From positions 4,009,156 to 4,073,155 of the forward strand of contig NZ_SIHJ01000001.1 of NCBI RefSeq assembly GCF_007859765.1: 64,000 nt of DNA. Reading direction: 5' to 3'. Source of the stretch: Posidoniimonas corsicana (lineage in GTDB: Bacteria; Planctomycetota; Planctomycetia; Pirellulales; Lacipirellulaceae). Within the stretch, counting starts at the first letter, position 1. Every line of letters begins with the position of its first letter. The notes below the pieces were generated by a model. The model was not told the origin of the DNA, did not search any database, and saw only the letters and a list, made by a program, of their open reading frames with translations. The translations under genes and the position numbers were made by a program. This document shows, one piece after another, positions 44,347 through 57,920 of this stretch.

Positions 44347-45960
44347 ATGGACGCCATGCCTGCCCACACGCCCGTCTTCGAGGATCCGAAGCGGCTGCTG
44401 CTCGATCTGGCCCAGCAGCGGGACCTGCCGTCGCTGCTCGACCTGCTGGTCACCCGGATCGGCGACTCCGACACCGTGGCGTTGGTGCGTGTCTGGCTGC
44501 TCAGGCCGGGCGACATCTGCGACGCCTGTCTGTTCCGAGAAGAATGCCCCGACCGTTCCCGTTGCCTGCACCTAGCAGCGAGCAGCGGCCGCTCCGTTGT
44601 TGATCCGGACCGGGACCTGAGCCGGCTGGACGGCCGCTTTCGCAGGTTCCCGGTCGGCGTGCGGAAGGTCGGTCGGATCGCTATGACCGGCGACCCGATC
44701 GAGGCGCCGGACCTGGCCGACATGCCCGACTGGATCGCTGATCCAGAGTGGGTTCGTTCCGAGGGGGTCATCGGCTTCGCGGGCCAGCCGCTGAGCCACC
44801 ACGGGATGGTGCTGGGCGTGCTCGGGGTGTTCAGCCGCGTGCGGATCAGCGACGAGTGCCTGGACTGGATGAGGATGATAGCGGACCACGCCGCCGCGTC
44901 CATCGCGCACTCGCACGCGTGGGACGAGCTGCAGCTGCTCAGGCGGCGTCTCGAGGAGGAGAACGAGTACCTGCAGCAGGAGGTCACGGTCGAGCAGGGC
45001 TTCGGCGAGATGCTGGGGACCAGCCCGGCGCTGCGCAACGTGGGCCGGCAGATCGAGCTGGTGGCCAAGACCGACTCGACCGTGCTGATCCTCGGCGAGA
45101 GCGGCGCCGGCAAGGAGCTGGTCGCGCGTGAGCTGCACCGGCACAGCGCCCGGGCGGGGCGGCCGTTGATCAAGGTGAACTGCGCGGCGGTGCCGCGCGA
45201 GCTGTTCGAGAGCGAGTTCTTCGGCCACGCCAAGGGGGCGTTCACCGGCGCGCTGCGCGACCGGGTGGGGCGGTTCGAGCTGGCCGACGGCGGCACGCTT
45301 TTCCTGGACGAGGTGGGCGAGGTCCCGATCGACCTGCAGAGCAAGCTGCTCCGCGTGCTGCAGGAGGGGGAGATCGAGCGGGTGGGTGAGGAGCAGACCC
45401 GCCGCGTGGACGTCCGCGTGATCGCGGCCACCAACCGCGACCTGCGCGACGAGTCGCGACGCGGCCGGTTCCGTGAGGACCTCTTCTACCGGCTGAGCGT
45501 GTTTCCCATCGAACTACCGCCGCTGCGGGATCGGCGCGAGGACATCCCGCTGCTCGCGGAACACTTCCTGGCGGCCTCGGCGCGCAGGATCGGGGTCGCC
45601 GCGCCGCGTTTGACCAAGGCGTTGGCGCGGCAGCTTGCTCAGTACGACTGGCCGGGCAACATCCGCGAGCTGCAGCACGTCATCGAGCGGGCGGTGATCC
45701 TGTGCCAGGGGGGCCCGCTGCGGGTGAGCCTGGGTGAGCCCAGTGGCGCCAACGCCAGCCCGCCCGTAGCCGCGGCGCCGGAGGTGCTCACGGATCAGCA
45801 GTTCCGGGAGATGGAGAAGCAGAACCTGCAACGCGCGCTCGCCGCCACGCGGGGCAAGGTCTACGGGCCGGGCGGCGCCGCGGAGCTGCTGGGCGTCCGC
45901 CCCACGACGCTCAACTCCCGCCTGGCGGCGATGGGCGTCAAAAAGCCGCCGGCCGACTAG
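44347..45960 (+). CDS. Sigma54-dependent activator with GAF domain and four-Cys cluster
   Basis: 537 residues. Residues about 12-195 form a GAF-type sensory domain. It carries an unusual cluster C58-x2-C61-x5-C67-x5-C73 (ICDACLFREECPDRSRC), suited to a metal or Fe-S site or a thiol switch. The AAA+ domain (about 220-445) has Walker A GESGAGKE, sigma54 loop GAFTGA (298-303-like) and Walker B TLFLDEVGE. The Fis HTH at the end, AAELLGVRPTTLNSRLAAMG, resembles the NorR/FhlA type. It is divergent from the AhpD-DUF1348 operon, whose promoter is -24/-12; the half-site array between them is the likely binding site. Signal: probably peroxide, NO or redox (inference). It converges on the GH25 gene with a 23-base overlap. 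Confidence 0.92.
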   Translation: MDAMPAHTPVFEDPKRLLLDLAQQRDLPSLLDLLVTRIGDSDTVALVRVWLLRPGDICDACLFREECPDRSRCLHLAASSGRSVVDPDRDLSRLDGRFRRFPVGVRKVGRIAMTGDPIEAPDLADMPDWIADPEWVRSEGVIGFAGQPLSHHGMVLGVLGVFSRVRISDECLDWMRMIADHAAASIAHSHAWDELQLLRRRLEEENEYLQQEVTVEQGFGEMLGTSPALRNVGRQIELVAKTDSTVLILGESGAGKELVARELHRHSARAGRPLIKVNCAAVPRELFESEFFGHAKGAFTGALRDRVGRFELADGGTLFLDEVGEVPIDLQSKLLRVLQEGEIERVGEEQTRRVDVRVIAATNRDLRDESRRGRFREDLFYRLSVFPIELPPLRDRREDIPLLAEHFLAASARRIGVAAPRLTKALARQLAQYDWPGNIRELQHVIERAVILCQGGPLRVSLGEPSGANASPPVAAAPEVLTDQQFREMEKQNLQRALAATRGKVYGPGGAAELLGVRPTTLNSRLAAMGVKKPPAD

Positions 45961-48076
45961 CCCGACGGCGGGCGATGGTGATACCCGCCGCCATGACTGC
46001 CAGCCCGGTCAGGGCGGCAGGCTCTGGGGCCGCCGACGACGACGCGCTCGCCGAAGTTGCGCCGAAGTTGTTGCGCCAGGCGACGTAGTCCTGTTGGCTG
46101 ACGGCGCCGGTGCTGGCCGGGTCGCGGTTGGGAAGTATGAACTCTGACCCCAGGTTGTCGCGCCAGACAGCGTAGTCGGCCGCGTCGACGACGCCGTCCG
46201 CGTTGTAGTCGCCGACGAGCTGAACGGCCGTGACCTCAAGCATACCGCTGCCGGCCAGCAGCGGGGTTTCGAACTGGGCGCCGGAGCCCACGCCGCCGTA
46301 CACGCCCGCGGGCATCGAGGCGCCGTCCAGCGTCAGCATGCCGATGGCGTCGGGCGTCCCGGTCCAGTCAAGCGTCAACAGGGCGCCACTCGCCAGCGCC
46401 ACATTGGCCGCGTCGTTGAGCCGCAGTCCGTCGAGTAACAACTCGCCTTGCTGCACATCGAGGTCGCCGGCGTAGGCGGTGGCCTGCCCCAGCGCAAGCG
46501 TGCCCAGCCCGGACTTGGCGAACGAGCCGTTGATCATCTCGACCAGCACCCGTACGTCCGTGGCGGCCGCCCCGTCCGCGACGTCCCACAGGTAGTCCTG
46601 CCCGCCCAGGTCGATCCGGCCGTCGGCGGTCTCGTCACCGGCGGTCTGGATCACGGCCTCCTGGCTGCCGTGCGGGCCGATCACGATGTCGCCCACGATC
46701 GAGAGCTCCCCGGGCGTTCTTCGTGCGCCGGCGAGCTGCAGCGAGGTGAACGCCAGCTCGCCGGCTAGCGTGAGCTGCTGGCCCGCATCGACGGCGATGG
46801 TGTGAGCGCCTAACGCCCCGCCGGTCACCGACAACGCCCCGGTAACCGCGACGCTGGGGCCGGGCGAGTCGCTCGACGGTGTGTGGTTCACGGCAAGCGA
46901 CCCGCCGGTGATGTCGAGCGTCTGCTGGACGACCAGCTTGCGGATGCTGTGGGCGCCCGACGAGTGGGTCACCGTCAGGTCGCCGGCGTCGCGGTCGATG
47001 ACGACGGTGTCGTCGCCCGCTGGCAGCCGCACGGCGGGGAGCGTCAGCGGACCGACGCGCGGGTCCTGGCGTCGCCCTTGCACCGGGGCGATCGGCGCCT
47101 GGCCGCTGTTCCAGTTATCGAGCGTGGTCCACTCGCCGGTCTCGCCGCCGGTCCACAGCGCGGGCACGAGCTGGTCCTTCAGGAACTCGATACCGCCCTG
47201 AGCCACGTTCAGGTCGAGGTTGCTGTTGCCGTTGTTGTACCCGCTCAACCGGCCGGTGCTGGCGTACTGCCAGAAGCCCCACGGGTGCTCCGGGTTGGGC
47301 GCGTCGTCCCACGGTCCGTAGATCGGGCCGTAGGTGTCGGCCGGGTGACCGGTCTGCACCGGGATGGCGTCGGGGTTGTCCTGGTTGGGCCACCGCGCGG
47401 CCCACAGAACGGGGTAGGCCGCGACCACCTCGTCCTGCAGGGCCGGCGAGGCGCCCTGCAGGTAGTTGGCGTAGTTGCCGTTGGTGTAGATAACCGGGCG
47501 GACCCCCATCACCTCGTAGACCCGATCGGAGAAGTCGATCGAGAACTGCGCCAGCTCGTCGCGGGTGTGCTGCGCCTGCCCCGCCTCGAGGTCGAACACG
47601 GGCAGCAGGTAGCCCGGCCGCATCCACGCGCCGGCCATCTCGATGAAGTGGTCCGCCTCATCCACGCCCGTGTTCGCGACGCCGCCCGAGTTCTGCGTGC
47701 TCTCTATGATGTCCGGCCGGGCGAAGTGGTACGGCCCTGCCAGCAGCCCGGCGTTGGTAGCGCGGGTGATGTTCTGCACAAAGTAGGGGTCGTCGTACCG
47801 CTGCGACTGCGTGTTGCGGTTCAGGTTGTTGCCGGGGTCGTTCTGGTTGTAGAAGCCGGTGGTCCCGCCGCGGCTCGAACGGATGAAGACGAAGTCGCGG
47901 TTGTTGGTGTTGTGGATCTCGCTCCACGAGTTGGCCGAGATCTCCGTCTGCCACGACGAGACATCCAGCCCCAGCGAGCGCTGCTGGGCGTGTGCCTGGG
48001 GCAGAGGCGACAAGAGGGTGGCCGCAAGGCTCAGTAGGGCGACGCGGCTTACGTATTTTGACACGGGCAGGGGCAT
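45938..48076 (-). CDS. Secreted GH25 lysozyme with dockerin-like and PEP-CTERM tail
   Basis: 712 residues. Signal peptide (VSRVALLSLAATLLSPLPQAHA). GH25 muramidase domain (about 33-290): LGLDVSSWQ with Asp38 and the D162-L-E164 pair in VFDLEAGQ, consistent with the DxE catalytic motif. A long beta-rich region follows (about 305-600). Near the end come a dockerin-type EF-hand pair, DYNADGVVDAADYAVWRDNL with NRDPASTGAVSQQDYVAWRN, then APEPAALTGLAVMAAGI and RRRASR, a PEP-CTERM tail. It should cleave peptidoglycan glycan or similar beta-1,4 linkages outside the cell. Exosortase is not in the window. Confidence 0.88.
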   Translation of the reverse strand: MPLPVSKYVSRVALLSLAATLLSPLPQAHAQQRSLGLDVSSWQTEISANSWSEIHNTNNRDFVFIRSSRGGTTGFYNQNDPGNNLNRNTQSQRYDDPYFVQNITRATNAGLLAGPYHFARPDIIESTQNSGGVANTGVDEADHFIEMAGAWMRPGYLLPVFDLEAGQAQHTRDELAQFSIDFSDRVYEVMGVRPVIYTNGNYANYLQGASPALQDEVVAAYPVLWAARWPNQDNPDAIPVQTGHPADTYGPIYGPWDDAPNPEHPWGFWQYASTGRLSGYNNGNSNLDLNVAQGGIEFLKDQLVPALWTGGETGEWTTLDNWNSGQAPIAPVQGRRQDPRVGPLTLPAVRLPAGDDTVVIDRDAGDLTVTHSSGAHSIRKLVVQQTLDITGGSLAVNHTPSSDSPGPSVAVTGALSVTGGALGAHTIAVDAGQQLTLAGELAFTSLQLAGARRTPGELSIVGDIVIGPHGSQEAVIQTAGDETADGRIDLGGQDYLWDVADGAAATDVRVLVEMINGSFAKSGLGTLALGQATAYAGDLDVQQGELLLDGLRLNDAANVALASGALLTLDWTGTPDAIGMLTLDGASMPAGVYGGVGSGAQFETPLLAGSGMLEVTAVQLVGDYNADGVVDAADYAVWRDNLGSEFILPNRDPASTGAVSQQDYVAWRNNFGATSASASSSAAPEPAALTGLAVMAAGITIARRRASRPAAF

Positions 48077-49179: not shown

Positions 49180-51630
49180 TTACTGGGCGGCAACCGGTGC
49201 GGGCCCACCGGCGTACCCGCACGCCCTCCCCAGCAGGCTCGGGTCGCTTGGCAGCAAGCGGGTCCAGGGCACGGGAAGGTCGTCATACCAGAAGCAGCCG
49301 CTAAGGCTGGCCGGCTCGCCGCGGTCGGCGGGCGTTACGTTGGCCGCGTGGGCTAGCTGGATGCAGTAATCCTCCACCGCGGCCATCACCTCGTCACTCT
49401 GGATCTCACCTACGCCCATCACAAAGCACTCGTAGCCCAGCAACGTACCCTGCTTGCTGATGGCCAGCAGCTTGCGGGCGATCGGCCGCCCGTGCTCGTC
49501 GTAGGCGTAGACCACTTGCTTGTTGGCGTGGGCGGCGTTGGTGAGCACCGCGAGGTTATTGCAGCCGTCCAGACTGAGGCAGGTCTGGAACCGCGTCCCC
49601 ATGAGCAGTACATCGAGCAGACCGTTGGCCACAGCGACCCGGGCCCAGCCGGCCGAATGCCCAAACGTAGCGCCGGGCGGCCGGAGCCACCGACGAACCC
49701 GCACGCCGTCCGCCCGCGCGGCGCGGATCCACGCCTGGTTGCAATCAAGGTGAAGCTTGTAACCCGGGCCGTGCCGGGCGTGCTTGGCGAGCACCTCCTG
49801 CAGCAGCCTCCGCTGGTTGGCGTCCATGTCCGATCTCCAGCTCGTAAACTCCCGGCAGCGTGACAGCGGCTCGTCCTTGATCAGTTCCGCGAGTTCGGCC
49901 CCTAGCAATCTTTCGCTCGCATCGCGGAGCCCTCGCAGCAACGCCTGATTGGCGGTCGAGACCGCCGCACGGCAGACGGCCTTCGCCCCCCGCTCCGGCA
50001 GTCGGGCGGCGGCGTGATGTCGACGGGCTAGTTTCTCGAGTCGGACGAGCTGTGGCTGGGACGCTCGGCCGGACGCGGCGAGGGAATGCAGGTAGGCAAG
50101 CTCCCGCGCGGACGCGTCCCTGCCAGCCTCGACCGCGGTACGCGCGTGCCCGGCGCCACATGCGTCGGCCAAGCAATGCCAGACACCAAGATCGTCGACG
50201 CTCGCGCCGCGCGGGACCGCGGCCGTCTGCAGCCAATCCTCTACCGCTGCGAGCGTCTCGGGTTGGTCAACCGCCCACAACATCGGGCCCGCGAGGGTGG
50301 ACTTCAGCTGACGCAAAACGCGCGGCGACCGGGCGTCGGCGGGCAGTCGGTTGACCCAGTCGACGTAGCCCCGGATGACGCTCCGTGCGCGCCGATGCTG
50401 GCAGGCGTCCGCGAACAGGTCGACCTTCGACATCATCTCCAAGCCCGCTGACTCGGCGTCCTCGACCAGCCGCCGGAACCACCTGGTCCGCAGGCCCGCG
50501 TCGCCGACCCGATCGCCAAGGCTGTGATCGAGCGCCCAGCGGACGTCCTCTACTCGTTCGCCGCGGGCGAGCTGCGTGCGGATCGACTCGTAGTGCCAGC
50601 AGGAGGTTCCGCTGTGCCCTCCGAGGAAGTCGACCAGGCGGCCGAAACCAGGCTTGGGCAGCTCGTCGAGCAACATAGCTGCCGACCGTTGCACCCAGTG
50701 GCCGTTGACGCTTGCGCCCCACTCGGCGGCCAACGCGTCTGGCTCGGCGTGCTGGTCGCAGGCGACCAGGGCGGCGACCGCGGCAAGCTGCGTTGACCGG
50801 CAGCCGTCGCTGCATTCGTTCACCGCCTGCCGGCACGCTTCCACCTGGGCCTGCAATCGCGAAGGGAGCGACCGGCGGAACTTCTTGCCCAGCAGACCGG
50901 CGCGCATCGCCAGGTCCGCCGGCAGCCGGCGGGCCCACTCCTCGATCTCCATGCGGATGCCGCGGAGCGGCTCGACCGCCAACCGGCGCCGCCACACCTG
51001 AAGTTGCGCGAGCGTGCTGCGGAGCTGGTCCCGGGCACGCGACTCTCGGCTGGTCGGCGGCAGCCGCCGGTAGGCCTGCATGAACCGCTCGGCCGCCGAC
51101 CGGCCGCTCAGCCAGAAGACGATCCGGGTGAACCCTGGCAGCTCCGCGTCGCCTAGCTGATGGCAGCCTGCCGAGCGGGCGAGCGCGTCGAGCTCCGCTT
51201 GCTGCTCCTCATCGATTAGCAGTCCAAACCCGTCCTCGCTGGTCGTGGGTTGGTTGTAGAGCCCGTACAAGTAGTCGAGCCTCCGCCGGACGCGGCGCAG
51301 CTCGGCGGCCTGTCGGCGGGAGACGCCGTGGCGCTGCCGCTCGGCCCAGCGTTCCCGTCGCCGCACCCGGTGCGCGACGCGGGCAAGCAGCCCGGCGGTG
51401 AGCGGTTCGGTCAGATCCTCGGTGAAGCCGAGCTGCCGCGGTGCTAGCTTGTCGGACTTCATAACGCCCGCGTGGGCCAGGTTGTCGAGCAGGCGGTGGG
51501 GGTCCGGCTGTCCACGGACCAGCACGACCCGGCCATCACTCATCCGGAGCGTGCGGGCGCGAAGGTCGGAGGCCAGTCGACCGAACGACTGCCGGCGGAT
51601 CGGAAGTTGGTTCGAAGAGTGTGGGCGCAT
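49180..51630 (-). CDS. Large helical protein of unknown function (816 residues)
   Basis: 816 residues, soluble, no signal peptide, rich in Arg, Ala and Leu with long predicted helices over residues 60-600. The C-terminal quarter (about 640-780) is the only part with a family-like look: LLDVLLMGTRFQTCLSLDG, ANKQVVYAYDEHGRPIARKL and GTLLGYECFVMG form a compact beta-rich module with conserved Cys, Asn-Asn, Asp and Arg. It resembles proteins annotated hypothetical in planctomycetes and other large-genome bacteria. No Walker, nuclease or kinase motif is seen. Flanked by the EEP gene and the papain-like/transglutaminase gene. Function cannot be stated. Confidence 0.8.
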   Translation of the reverse strand: MRPHSSNQLPIRRQSFGRLASDLRARTLRMSDGRVVLVRGQPDPHRLLDNLAHAGVMKSDKLAPRQLGFTEDLTEPLTAGLLARVAHRVRRRERWAERQRHGVSRRQAAELRRVRRRLDYLYGLYNQPTTSEDGFGLLIDEEQQAELDALARSAGCHQLGDAELPGFTRIVFWLSGRSAAERFMQAYRRLPPTSRESRARDQLRSTLAQLQVWRRRLAVEPLRGIRMEIEEWARRLPADLAMRAGLLGKKFRRSLPSRLQAQVEACRQAVNECSDGCRSTQLAAVAALVACDQHAEPDALAAEWGASVNGHWVQRSAAMLLDELPKPGFGRLVDFLGGHSGTSCWHYESIRTQLARGERVEDVRWALDHSLGDRVGDAGLRTRWFRRLVEDAESAGLEMMSKVDLFADACQHRRARSVIRGYVDWVNRLPADARSPRVLRQLKSTLAGPMLWAVDQPETLAAVEDWLQTAAVPRGASVDDLGVWHCLADACGAGHARTAVEAGRDASARELAYLHSLAASGRASQPQLVRLEKLARRHHAAARLPERGAKAVCRAAVSTANQALLRGLRDASERLLGAELAELIKDEPLSRCREFTSWRSDMDANQRRLLQEVLAKHARHGPGYKLHLDCNQAWIRAARADGVRVRRWLRPPGATFGHSAGWARVAVANGLLDVLLMGTRFQTCLSLDGCNNLAVLTNAAHANKQVVYAYDEHGRPIARKLLAISKQGTLLGYECFVMGVGEIQSDEVMAAVEDYCIQLAHAANVTPADRGEPASLSGCFWYDDLPVPWTRLLPSDPSLLGRACGYAGGPAPVAAQ

Positions 51631-51888
51631 GGGGAACCTTCACGCGGACGACGCGGGCGCGCAGCGGCCAGCGCGTTGCTGGTGAGTGGGAACGGCGCGC
51701 GGAGAGTCCGCGCGCCGGGAGCCTGCCCGTCAGGGCGTGCCGGGGGCGTGGTTAGCCCTGGGTCAGCTTGTGGAGGAGGTTCAGCATCGCTCGGCGCCAC
51801 CCGTTGCGGGCGGTTGGATTGGGGAACAGCGCGGCCACCAACGTCCGTGGCCGACAGCTAGGACCGCCCGCCTTGAAGAGGGTTCGCG

Positions 51889-56565: not shown

Positions 56566-56732
56566 CGCCACCGGCGCGTTCCCGCCGCGGGCGCATTGAA
56601 AACTAGCCTGAGTGATCCGACGTCGTCGGGCGAATAGGGATGCAGACCAACCGCATCCCCTTGCCTTAGCCGCGTGCGCGGCGCCGAACGATGATCGCTC
56701 TTAGCCCTGAATTCAAACAGAGGTCAAGAACG

Positions 56733-57920
56733 ATGTTCGAAGACGGCTCCACGCCCGCCGACAGCTCCGGCAAGTGCCTGCTCAACGAGACCTCCGCCGG
56801 CCGCGGCCCCGCTGGCGACGCGCCCGAGATTGTCGACTCGCTCATCCACCAGACGTTCGAGCTCGGCGCCAGCGACATGCACCTGCTGCCGATGGCCAAT
56901 GGCCTGCGGGTCCACTGGCGGATCGACGGGGTTCTCCACCACGCCGGCGACCTGCCCAAGTCGGTCGCCTCGCACGTGATCACCCGCGTCAAGGTGCTGG
57001 CCGACCTGATCACCTACGAGAGCCACACGCCGCAAGAGGGCCGCATGCGCACCAGCCCCGACCGACCGCCGGTGCGCATCACGACGATGCCCACCCTGTT
57101 CGGCGAGCAGGTGGTGGCCCGCGTGCTGCCGGGCGGCGCCCAGCACATGGCCCGGCTCGACGACCTCGGCATGCCGGCCACCACGCACCAGATCCTCAGC
57201 GAGGCGCTCCGCCAGACCACCGGCGCCATCCTCATCGCCGGCCCATCCGGCAGCGGCAAGTCGACGACCGCGTACGCCGTGATCCGCGAGATCGGCGCGG
57301 TGTCGGTCGGCGCCCGCAGCATCTCGTCGCTCGAGGACCCGGTCGAGGTGGTGCTGCCCGGGGTGGCCCAGTCCCAGGCCGCCGCGCACGCCGGGTTCGA
57401 CATCAACACCGGCCTGCGGGCGTTGGTGCGGCAGGACCCCGAGGTGATCCTGGTGGGAGAGATCCGCGACGCGGAGTCCGCGCGGATCGCGTTCCAGGCG
57501 GCGCTCACCGGGCAGCTGCTCGTCACCACGTTCCACGCCAGCGACATCGTCACCGCCATCACGCGGCTGATCGACATGGGCATCCCGCCTTACGTGCTCC
57601 GCGGCGCAACCCAGGCCATTGTGGTGCAGCGGCTGCTGCGCCGGCTGTGCGCGTGCTCCCACCCCGACAAGCTGGTCGGCTGCGGCAACTGCCGCGGGAC
57701 CGGCTACAAGGGCCGGGTGGTGATCGCCGAAGCGGCCGACGTCCGCGAGGCGGACCTGTCCGAAGAGATCCGCGAGGACTACGACCGCGACCGCCTGCAC
57801 AGCAAGCTGCACGACCACGGATCGCAGAGCCTGTACGAGCAGGCCGAGTCGCTCATCGCCGAGGGCGTCACGACGCGCCTCGAGATGCAGCGCGTGCTCG
57901 GCTTCCCCCACCAGTCCTGA
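56733..57920 (+). CDS. GspE/PilB-type secretion ATPase
   Basis: 395 residues from ATG 56733, with AGGTC upstream; an ATG at 56691 would add 14. It has the PilT/GspE C-terminal core: DIHEL-like GASDMHLLPMANG, Walker A AGPSGSGKST (about 169-176), Asp box and Walker B VILVGEIRDAESA, His box LLVTTFHASD, and a zinc ribbon CACSHPDK plus GCGNCRGTGYKGR (about 305-325), typical of GspE and absent from PilT. The usual long N1 domain of GspE is missing, so the protein is close to minimal. Hexameric motor for pseudopilus assembly, with the three GspF-like proteins that follow. Confidence 0.92.
   Translation: MFEDGSTPADSSGKCLLNETSAGRGPAGDAPEIVDSLIHQTFELGASDMHLLPMANGLRVHWRIDGVLHHAGDLPKSVASHVITRVKVLADLITYESHTPQEGRMRTSPDRPPVRITTMPTLFGEQVVARVLPGGAQHMARLDDLGMPATTHQILSEALRQTTGAILIAGPSGSGKSTTAYAVIREIGAVSVGARSISSLEDPVEVVLPGVAQSQAAAHAGFDINTGLRALVRQDPEVILVGEIRDAESARIAFQAALTGQLLVTTFHASDIVTAITRLIDMGIPPYVLRGATQAIVVQRLLRRLCACSHPDKLVGCGNCRGTGYKGRVVIAEAADVREADLSEEIREDYDRDRLHSKLHDHGSQSLYEQAESLIAEGVTTRLEMQRVLGFPHQS

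Follow-up and report, generated by a model that had tools for sequence, protein, structure and literature searches.

The C-terminal module of an 816-residue orphan protein encoded in the window (the whole stretch of 64,000 nucleotides of Posidoniimonas corsicana DNA that was analysed) is, as judged from its alignment, not an ordinary GNAT, as it lacks the usual CoA-binding loop and carries conserved residues of its own. Structure prediction suggests that its alpha/beta domain is probably GNAT-like and not a brand-new fold. Because a GNAT-like predicted fold without the CoA loop is combined here with a separate set of conserved residues, the protein might be a non-canonical transferase of the GNAT fold that is tethered to a solenoid and has a non-standard site for its donor, a prediction that we favour tentatively and place a little short of an even chance. 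The analysis makes an orphan family testable, as it now has a predicted GNAT-like head, candidate active-site residues, no usual donor loop, and bodies that differ among its members. The features of the gene and its product are listed in Table 1.

Table 1. Features of the ORF and of the encoded protein, with window positions.
Feature	Window positions	Strand	Basis
Whole ORF, 816 amino acids (816 codons), without annotated family	49180..51630	-	ORF and relatives
GAAGG, ribosome-binding-site-like, 6 bases 5' of the ATG	51637..51641	-	Sequence; putative as a ribosome-binding site
N-terminal cap, residues about 14-63: helix, beta-hairpin (26-29, 35-38), helix	51442..51591	-	Full-length AlphaFold model
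Alpha-helical, solenoid-like body, residues about 64-505	50116..51441	-	Full-length AlphaFold model; related N-termini in 15 of 41 rows
Helical neck of the conserved module, residues 506-651, with Asn631 and Trp648	49678..50115	-	Models and alignment
GNAT-like alpha/beta domain, residues 652-790	49261..49677	-	Models and fold searches
TCLSLDGCNN motif (683-692), with Cys684	49555..49584	-	Sequence and alignment
ANK...ARKL stretch (702-721), with Asn703, Lys704 and Arg719	49468..49527	-	Sequence and alignment
WYDD motif (781-784), with Asp784	49279..49290	-	Sequence and alignment

Gene, architecture and distribution

The initial annotation had described a protein of 816 residues with a long helical body and a conserved C-terminal module, without naming the strand. 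The protein is indeed present as a single ORF on the minus strand, the full-length AlphaFold model bore out the helical body, and an alignment of 66 modules did the same for the conservation of the C-terminal part. The ORF is more than chance, and we regard it as a real gene because of the GAAGG before the ATG and the conservation of the protein across genomes; relatives in three genomes have 34%, 30% and 28% identity to it over most of its length. No signal peptide was apparent by eye, and the protein is stand-alone and probably cytoplasmic. The three stretches quoted in the initial annotation, TCLSLDGCNN, ANKQVVYAYDEHGRPIARKL and GYECF, correspond to residues 683-692, 702-721 and 732-736, respectively.

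In the full-length model the body consists almost entirely of helices, with pLDDT values per 10-residue block ranging from 67 to 97, and the term solenoid was read off this run of helices in the predicted body of the window protein. Alpha-solenoid frequencies in Planctomycetes are given as comparable to those of eukaryotes in an excerpt of PMC3837014, and a solenoid body would therefore not be unusual in this group. The module (about 290 amino acids) comprises the helical neck and an alpha/beta domain of about 140 amino acids and is the constant part across relatives. N-termini related to the window body were detected by iterated hmmsearch in 15 of 41 rows (14 distinct ones, L002 and L007 being one gene), and the bodies of the other groups displayed no kinship to it that hhalign could detect. 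Among 15 hhalign pairs of N-terminal bodies, the only signal, a weak one (39%), came from M against M2 (Myxococcota-type; L021 with L022), and five pairs of C-terminal extensions yielded none. The window protein, its near relatives and the Verrucomicrobia-type proteins have 0-54 residues after the module, the remaining proteins 163-196 or 483-716. Sequence comparison thus describes a constant head on differing bodies, which were either swapped or merely diverged. In three distant relatives (genomes G410, G493 and G525; loci L062, L065, L066 and L069-L071), core and neck matched separately, about 250-290 bases apart, as if the GNAT-like core were an independent domain.

The only match to the protein in its own genome (6.77 Mb) was the protein itself. 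A full-length search of 59 related genomes gave matches in five, its own genome counted and one of the five by the module only; a genome of the same genus (G001) had no match in this search, and when the site was compared with G001, the best matches of the flanking genes lay on separate contigs (C5 and C8), so that no insertion site was shown. With the module alignment as query, one-per-species genomes yielded 37 loci out of 76 pattern matches. According to their record titles, which mostly denote MAGs, these loci belong to Planctomycetota or its subgroups, Lentisphaerae, Verrucomicrobia, Myxococcales/Polyangia/Labilithrix and Armatimonadetes, with one further title naming Bacteroidetes, two 'proteobacterium' and two simply 'bacterium'. 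The module was present in at least 12 of 296 genomes of the window's order and at least 13 of 392 of its phylum, in at least 8 of 288 of the phylum around the genome of L033, and in at least 11 of 235 of the phylum around that of L012; all four tallies include the centre genome and are lower bounds, as the scoring took in part of each genome's candidates (6 to 11 of them in the larger searches). The distribution is patchy: in the order and the three phyla, roughly 3-5% of the genomes sampled carry the module. Of 14 carriers reached through the loci, 13 had one match and one had two.

Module identity of the relatives to the window copy ranges from 19 to 35%, and in a tree of 66 modules the nearest rows to the window are Aeoliella straminimaris (L007; labelled as Lacipirellulaceae, Planctomycetota), whose protein is more typical than the window copy, and another member of the window's family. 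One relative (L004, 1438-4018, genome G039) is split into two frames near its N-terminus, with ORFs of 705 and 277 amino acids, and represents either a frameshift or a decaying copy. A phage or plasmid origin was considered and set aside, as a tblastn search of phages and plasmids with the window module produced no hits at E up to 1; for a viral origin, two scans of viral contigs with the module alignments found none.

Predicted fold and conserved residues

Searches of Pfam, NCBIfam, PADLOC and PHROGs with the whole protein (E up to 10) were without a match, as was a search of PDB sequences. Pfam searches with eight relatives and NCBIfam searches with seven produced nothing convincing (two weak rows for one protein and one weak row, respectively). 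When 39 modules were searched against Pfam at E up to 1, 23 families each matched a single module (best E 0.022), and the module profile gave four rows at E 0.1-1.4 against PDB sequences; both results were taken as chance. A sequence profile linking the module to GNATs was not found. The initial annotation had concluded that no known motif fits and that the family is unknown, a view staked on the lack of a clear match to a characterised family. With respect to described families this view stands, but it does not extend to the predicted fold, for which GNAT-like matches were obtained.

The AlphaFold model of the module, built from 39 sequences, has a mean pLDDT of 94.9 and a pTM of 0.82, and the full-length model (pLDDT 88.9, pTM 0.77) contains the same domain; confidence is low at the chain start and in residues 794-816. 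The predicted strands are b0 (654-658), b1 (661-667), b2 (704-710), b3 (716-725) and b4 (729-737), and the predicted helices a1 (671-680, two short helices in the module model), a2 (694-700) and a3 (742-762). As in the module, GNATs have the element order b0-b1-a1-a2-b2-b3-b4-a3 in the excerpted text of PMC4964394. After a3 there is at most a very short strand (b5), followed by the WYDD loop, and the canonical alpha4-beta6 was seen in neither the module model nor the full-length model.

In a Foldseek search of the PDB with the module, the best 50 of 655 matches (E up to 10) were all acetyltransferases or FemX, with a best E of 0.0077 and a probability near 1.0 in the top rows; neither the module nor the full model had a match down to E 0.001, and the best E of the full model was 0.11. 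VIA-align placed the module closest to NatD (Z 9.2, 136 residues, rmsd 4.0 A), an aminoglycoside acetyltransferase being third (Z 8.9, 107 residues, rmsd 2.8 A), and reached Z 10.2 at best with the full model, where the rows all cover 652-798. According to the tool, background comparisons often reach a best Z of 7-8, and values of about 9-10 are only somewhat higher. The fold lists of the full model were filled by the GNAT-like domain. Because these Z and E values are statistically modest, we base the fold assignment on how uniform the hits are and on the order of the elements. Among viral models (BFVD), the best 50 of 829 matches (E up to 10) included 11 named as acetyltransferase, GNAT or NAT_SF and seven named as PcfJ or PcfJ-like, the best row being an uncharacterised phage protein (E 1.8e-5).

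The 66-module alignment was compiled without identical duplicates and without 10 matches of fewer than 150 profile positions, and the broken relative L004 is counted by its module. Trp648 and Arg719 are found in 66 of 66 modules, Cys684 and Lys704 in 65, Asn703 in 64, Asn631 of the neck in 61, and Asp784 in all 63 rows that have a residue at that position. Cysteine, asparagine, aspartate and arginine had been said to be clustered as in an active or binding site; Cys, Asn, Lys, Arg, Asp and Trp did prove near-invariant, in a manner that would be as in a catalytic or binding site, but the Asp of the quoted YDEHG (D711) lies outside the conserved set. The near-invariant acidic positions are instead 784 (63/63) and 701, which is Asp in 63 of 66 modules and His in the window copy.

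The loop between b4 and a3, where the acyl-CoA P-loop pattern (Gln/Arg-x-x-Gly-x-Gly/Ala) is expected, varies in sequence and length among the 66 modules. Five of them have the pattern, which is near chance level (mean of 2.1 in shuffled sequences, with 21 of 200 shuffles reaching five). As a control, 22 of 25 PF00583 matches of the same genome (out of 27) carry it, counted over the whole match and hence a longer stretch, and in at least one of the 22 (L140) it lies outside the P-loop. The window module has no P-loop pattern, its sole occurrence being at residue 802 in the low-confidence tail. Three of the five hits (L103, L014 and L105) fall within the Lentisphaerae-type clade, in which R-R-x-G-[IV]-A at the start of a3 fits the pattern; from its sequence, this stretch could be a relic or chance. 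Atypical P-loops do occur in some GNATs, as stated in part of PMC4964394. Compared with the GNAT superfamily (PF00583 and relatives), the module thus has in common the predicted order of elements and best 50 PDB rows made up of acetyltransferases and FemX, but differs in its P-loop pattern, absent from the window module and near chance level in the family, in having no profile match and no alpha4-beta6 seen in the models, and in its own set of Cys, Asn, Lys, Arg and Asp.

The window copy is divergent. At position 701 it is the only one of the 66 modules with His (63 have Asp), and at position 736 the only one with Phe (64 have Tyr); position 785 is Leu, where Gly predominates (53 of 62). Its branch in the 66-row tree is 1.19 long, against 0.38 and 0.48 for its closest relatives. 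Because His701, Phe736 and Leu785 replace the Asp, Tyr and Gly of most relatives, the activity of the window copy may be altered or weakened.

Possible function and alternative readings

We rank a transferase as the most likely reading, followed by a GNAT fold that only binds. In a transferase, the helical body would hold a protein or a nucleic acid as its macromolecular partner, which the GNAT-like domain would modify by group transfer in a pocket that might be lined by W648, C684, N703, K704, R719 and D784. The donor would either not be acyl-CoA, or be acyl-CoA bound without the usual P-loop; from GNAT topology, Arg719 (b3) and the Tyr position 736 (end of b4) would lie near the CoA phosphate site of ordinary GNATs.

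The conserved residues may, however, hold a ligand without performing chemistry. The domain would then be a GNAT-fold pseudo-enzyme that no longer binds a donor and instead provides a scaffold with a terminal module for specific binding or dimerisation; we consider this reading unlikely on the whole, though it comes second. Near-chance occurrence of the P-loop pattern, the variable sequence and length of the beta4-alpha3 loop, the unseen alpha4-beta6 and the change of two near-invariant residues in the window copy would all agree with such a loss, but W648, C684, N703, K704, R719 and D784 are kept in at least 63 rows from several phyla at 19-35% module identity, which exceeds the needs of a plain scaffold.

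More speculative, and improbable as it stands, is the view that the module belongs with PcfJ in an undescribed clade of GNAT-fold transferases, which would have given up the P-loop for a Cys/Asn/Lys/Arg/Asp centre and another donor, and in which a constant head would sit on interchangeable helical bodies, on chromosomes of several phyla and, in the case of PcfJ, on plasmids and phages. Still less probable is the narrower claim that the module belongs to the PcfJ (PF14284) superfamily as a chromosomal branch and acts like PcfJ of conjugative plasmids and phages. We took PcfJ proteins from planctomycetes and viral contigs and aligned 16 of them. The PcfJ motif reads G-x-x-x-x-H-C-V and that of the module G-x-x-F-x-T-C-L, equally spaced and with Thr instead of His, and the spacing G-x-x-x-x-[T/H]-C-[L/V] is common to most rows of the PcfJ alignment and the modules. 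The seven PcfJ- or PcfJ-like-named entries among the best 50 (of 829) BFVD fold matches point in the same direction, as do the superposition of both motifs by hhalign, with a forced long alignment that continues strand by strand, and the long N-terminal body that likewise precedes the domain in planctomycete PcfJ proteins. Against this, the hhalign probability is under 1%, 10 of 150 column shuffles scored as high as its 14.0, and other comparisons gave no meaningful alignment. Pfam PcfJ is also absent from the families matched by the 39 modules (E up to 1), its model has no match in the protein's own genome, and by eye the T-x-E and G-x-x-N positions of PcfJ are without counterpart in the module. 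The module therefore resembles PcfJ (PF14284) in its viral PcfJ-like fold matches, in a Cys spaced alike from a conserved Gly and in the long N-terminal body that comes first, but differs in the lack of significant profile similarity, in its other conserved residues and in not matching the Pfam model. On these sequences PcfJ would be a lead and not a family assignment, and kinship is unproven; if the link held, it would provide a mechanistic idea for PcfJ too. The name pCFJ also denotes a plasmid in C. elegans work. Titles and abstract beginnings of the literature on PcfJ with acetyltransferase, GNAT or conjugative, and on PcfJ-like, assign no GNAT-like fold to PcfJ, and in the excerpt of PMC10782964 PcfJ and GNAT are merely separate entries of one table. 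One planctomycete contig (genome G049) carries two PcfJ-family genes, L075 and L077, about 7 kb apart.

A tRNA-dependent aminoacyl transferase of the FemX, ATE1 or LFTR kind is very unlikely. FemX is the top Foldseek row and accounts for five of the best 50, but its E value of 0.008 is practically the same as those of acetyltransferases (0.010 to 0.012). FemX is absent from the 50 entries listed by VIA-align, which need not speak against it. FemX has two GNAT-like domains. Excerpts of PMC4964394 and PMC10115844 describe GNAT-fold enzymes of this kind as taking the amino acid from aminoacyl-tRNA, and such a donor would fit the absent P-loop. A basic helix patch serves tRNA binding in the excerpted part of PMC10115844, but such a patch was not seen on alpha3 of the module, equivalence of the helices being assumed: residues 738-752 have a net charge of -3 in the window protein and a median of 0, with at least +2 in 8 of 66 modules and less than +2 in 58. 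Because the start of a3 is not basic, again on the assumed equivalence, a tRNA-dependent mode appears less likely. FemX and the GNAT-fold aminoacyl-tRNA transferases thus share with the module the GNAT-like fold and, as far as these excerpts go, the dispensability of acyl-CoA, but differ from it in that the module mostly has no basic alpha3 start, has no sequence match to them and, in the model, contains a single GNAT-like domain.

An anti-phage defence effector is scarcely credible: the patchy distribution and the single copy per genome in 13 of 14 carriers would be in keeping with it, but the protein itself is unmatched in PADLOC at E up to 10 and in the phage, plasmid and viral collections, its neighbours include no family-wide partner, and the linkage to defence genes that the initial annotation had proposed to look for did not emerge in 65 of 122 neighbour ORFs, where among the 25 of 47 PADLOC families shown none recurred in more than one member.

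Genomic neighbourhood

Around the gene, the window encodes a sigma-54 activator, GH25-family, endonuclease/exonuclease/phosphatase-family and transglutaminase-like proteins, and a type II/IV secretion ATPase. That this context gives no function, as had been suspected, agrees with the relatives, whose neighbours share no family-wide partner: the most frequent neighbour cluster is present at five of 38 loci, one of which is that of the window. The 37 loci other than the window have 122 listed neighbour ORFs, which were called by a simple longest-ORF rule and some of which may be spurious. In a subset of 65 of these, five matched planctomycete cytochrome families and two bestrophin, and each remaining family, among the 25 of 60 shown, was matched by one.

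Two neighbours in the window may be described further. The 712-residue protein at 45938-48076 (minus strand) contains a Glycosyl hydrolase family 25 domain and, because its C-terminus appears by eye to be dockerin-like and PEP-CTERM-like, is probably a secreted cell-wall hydrolase. The type II/IV secretion ATPase at 56691-57920 (plus strand) heads a run of co-directional ORFs to about 63700, which may represent a type II secretion or pilus cluster.
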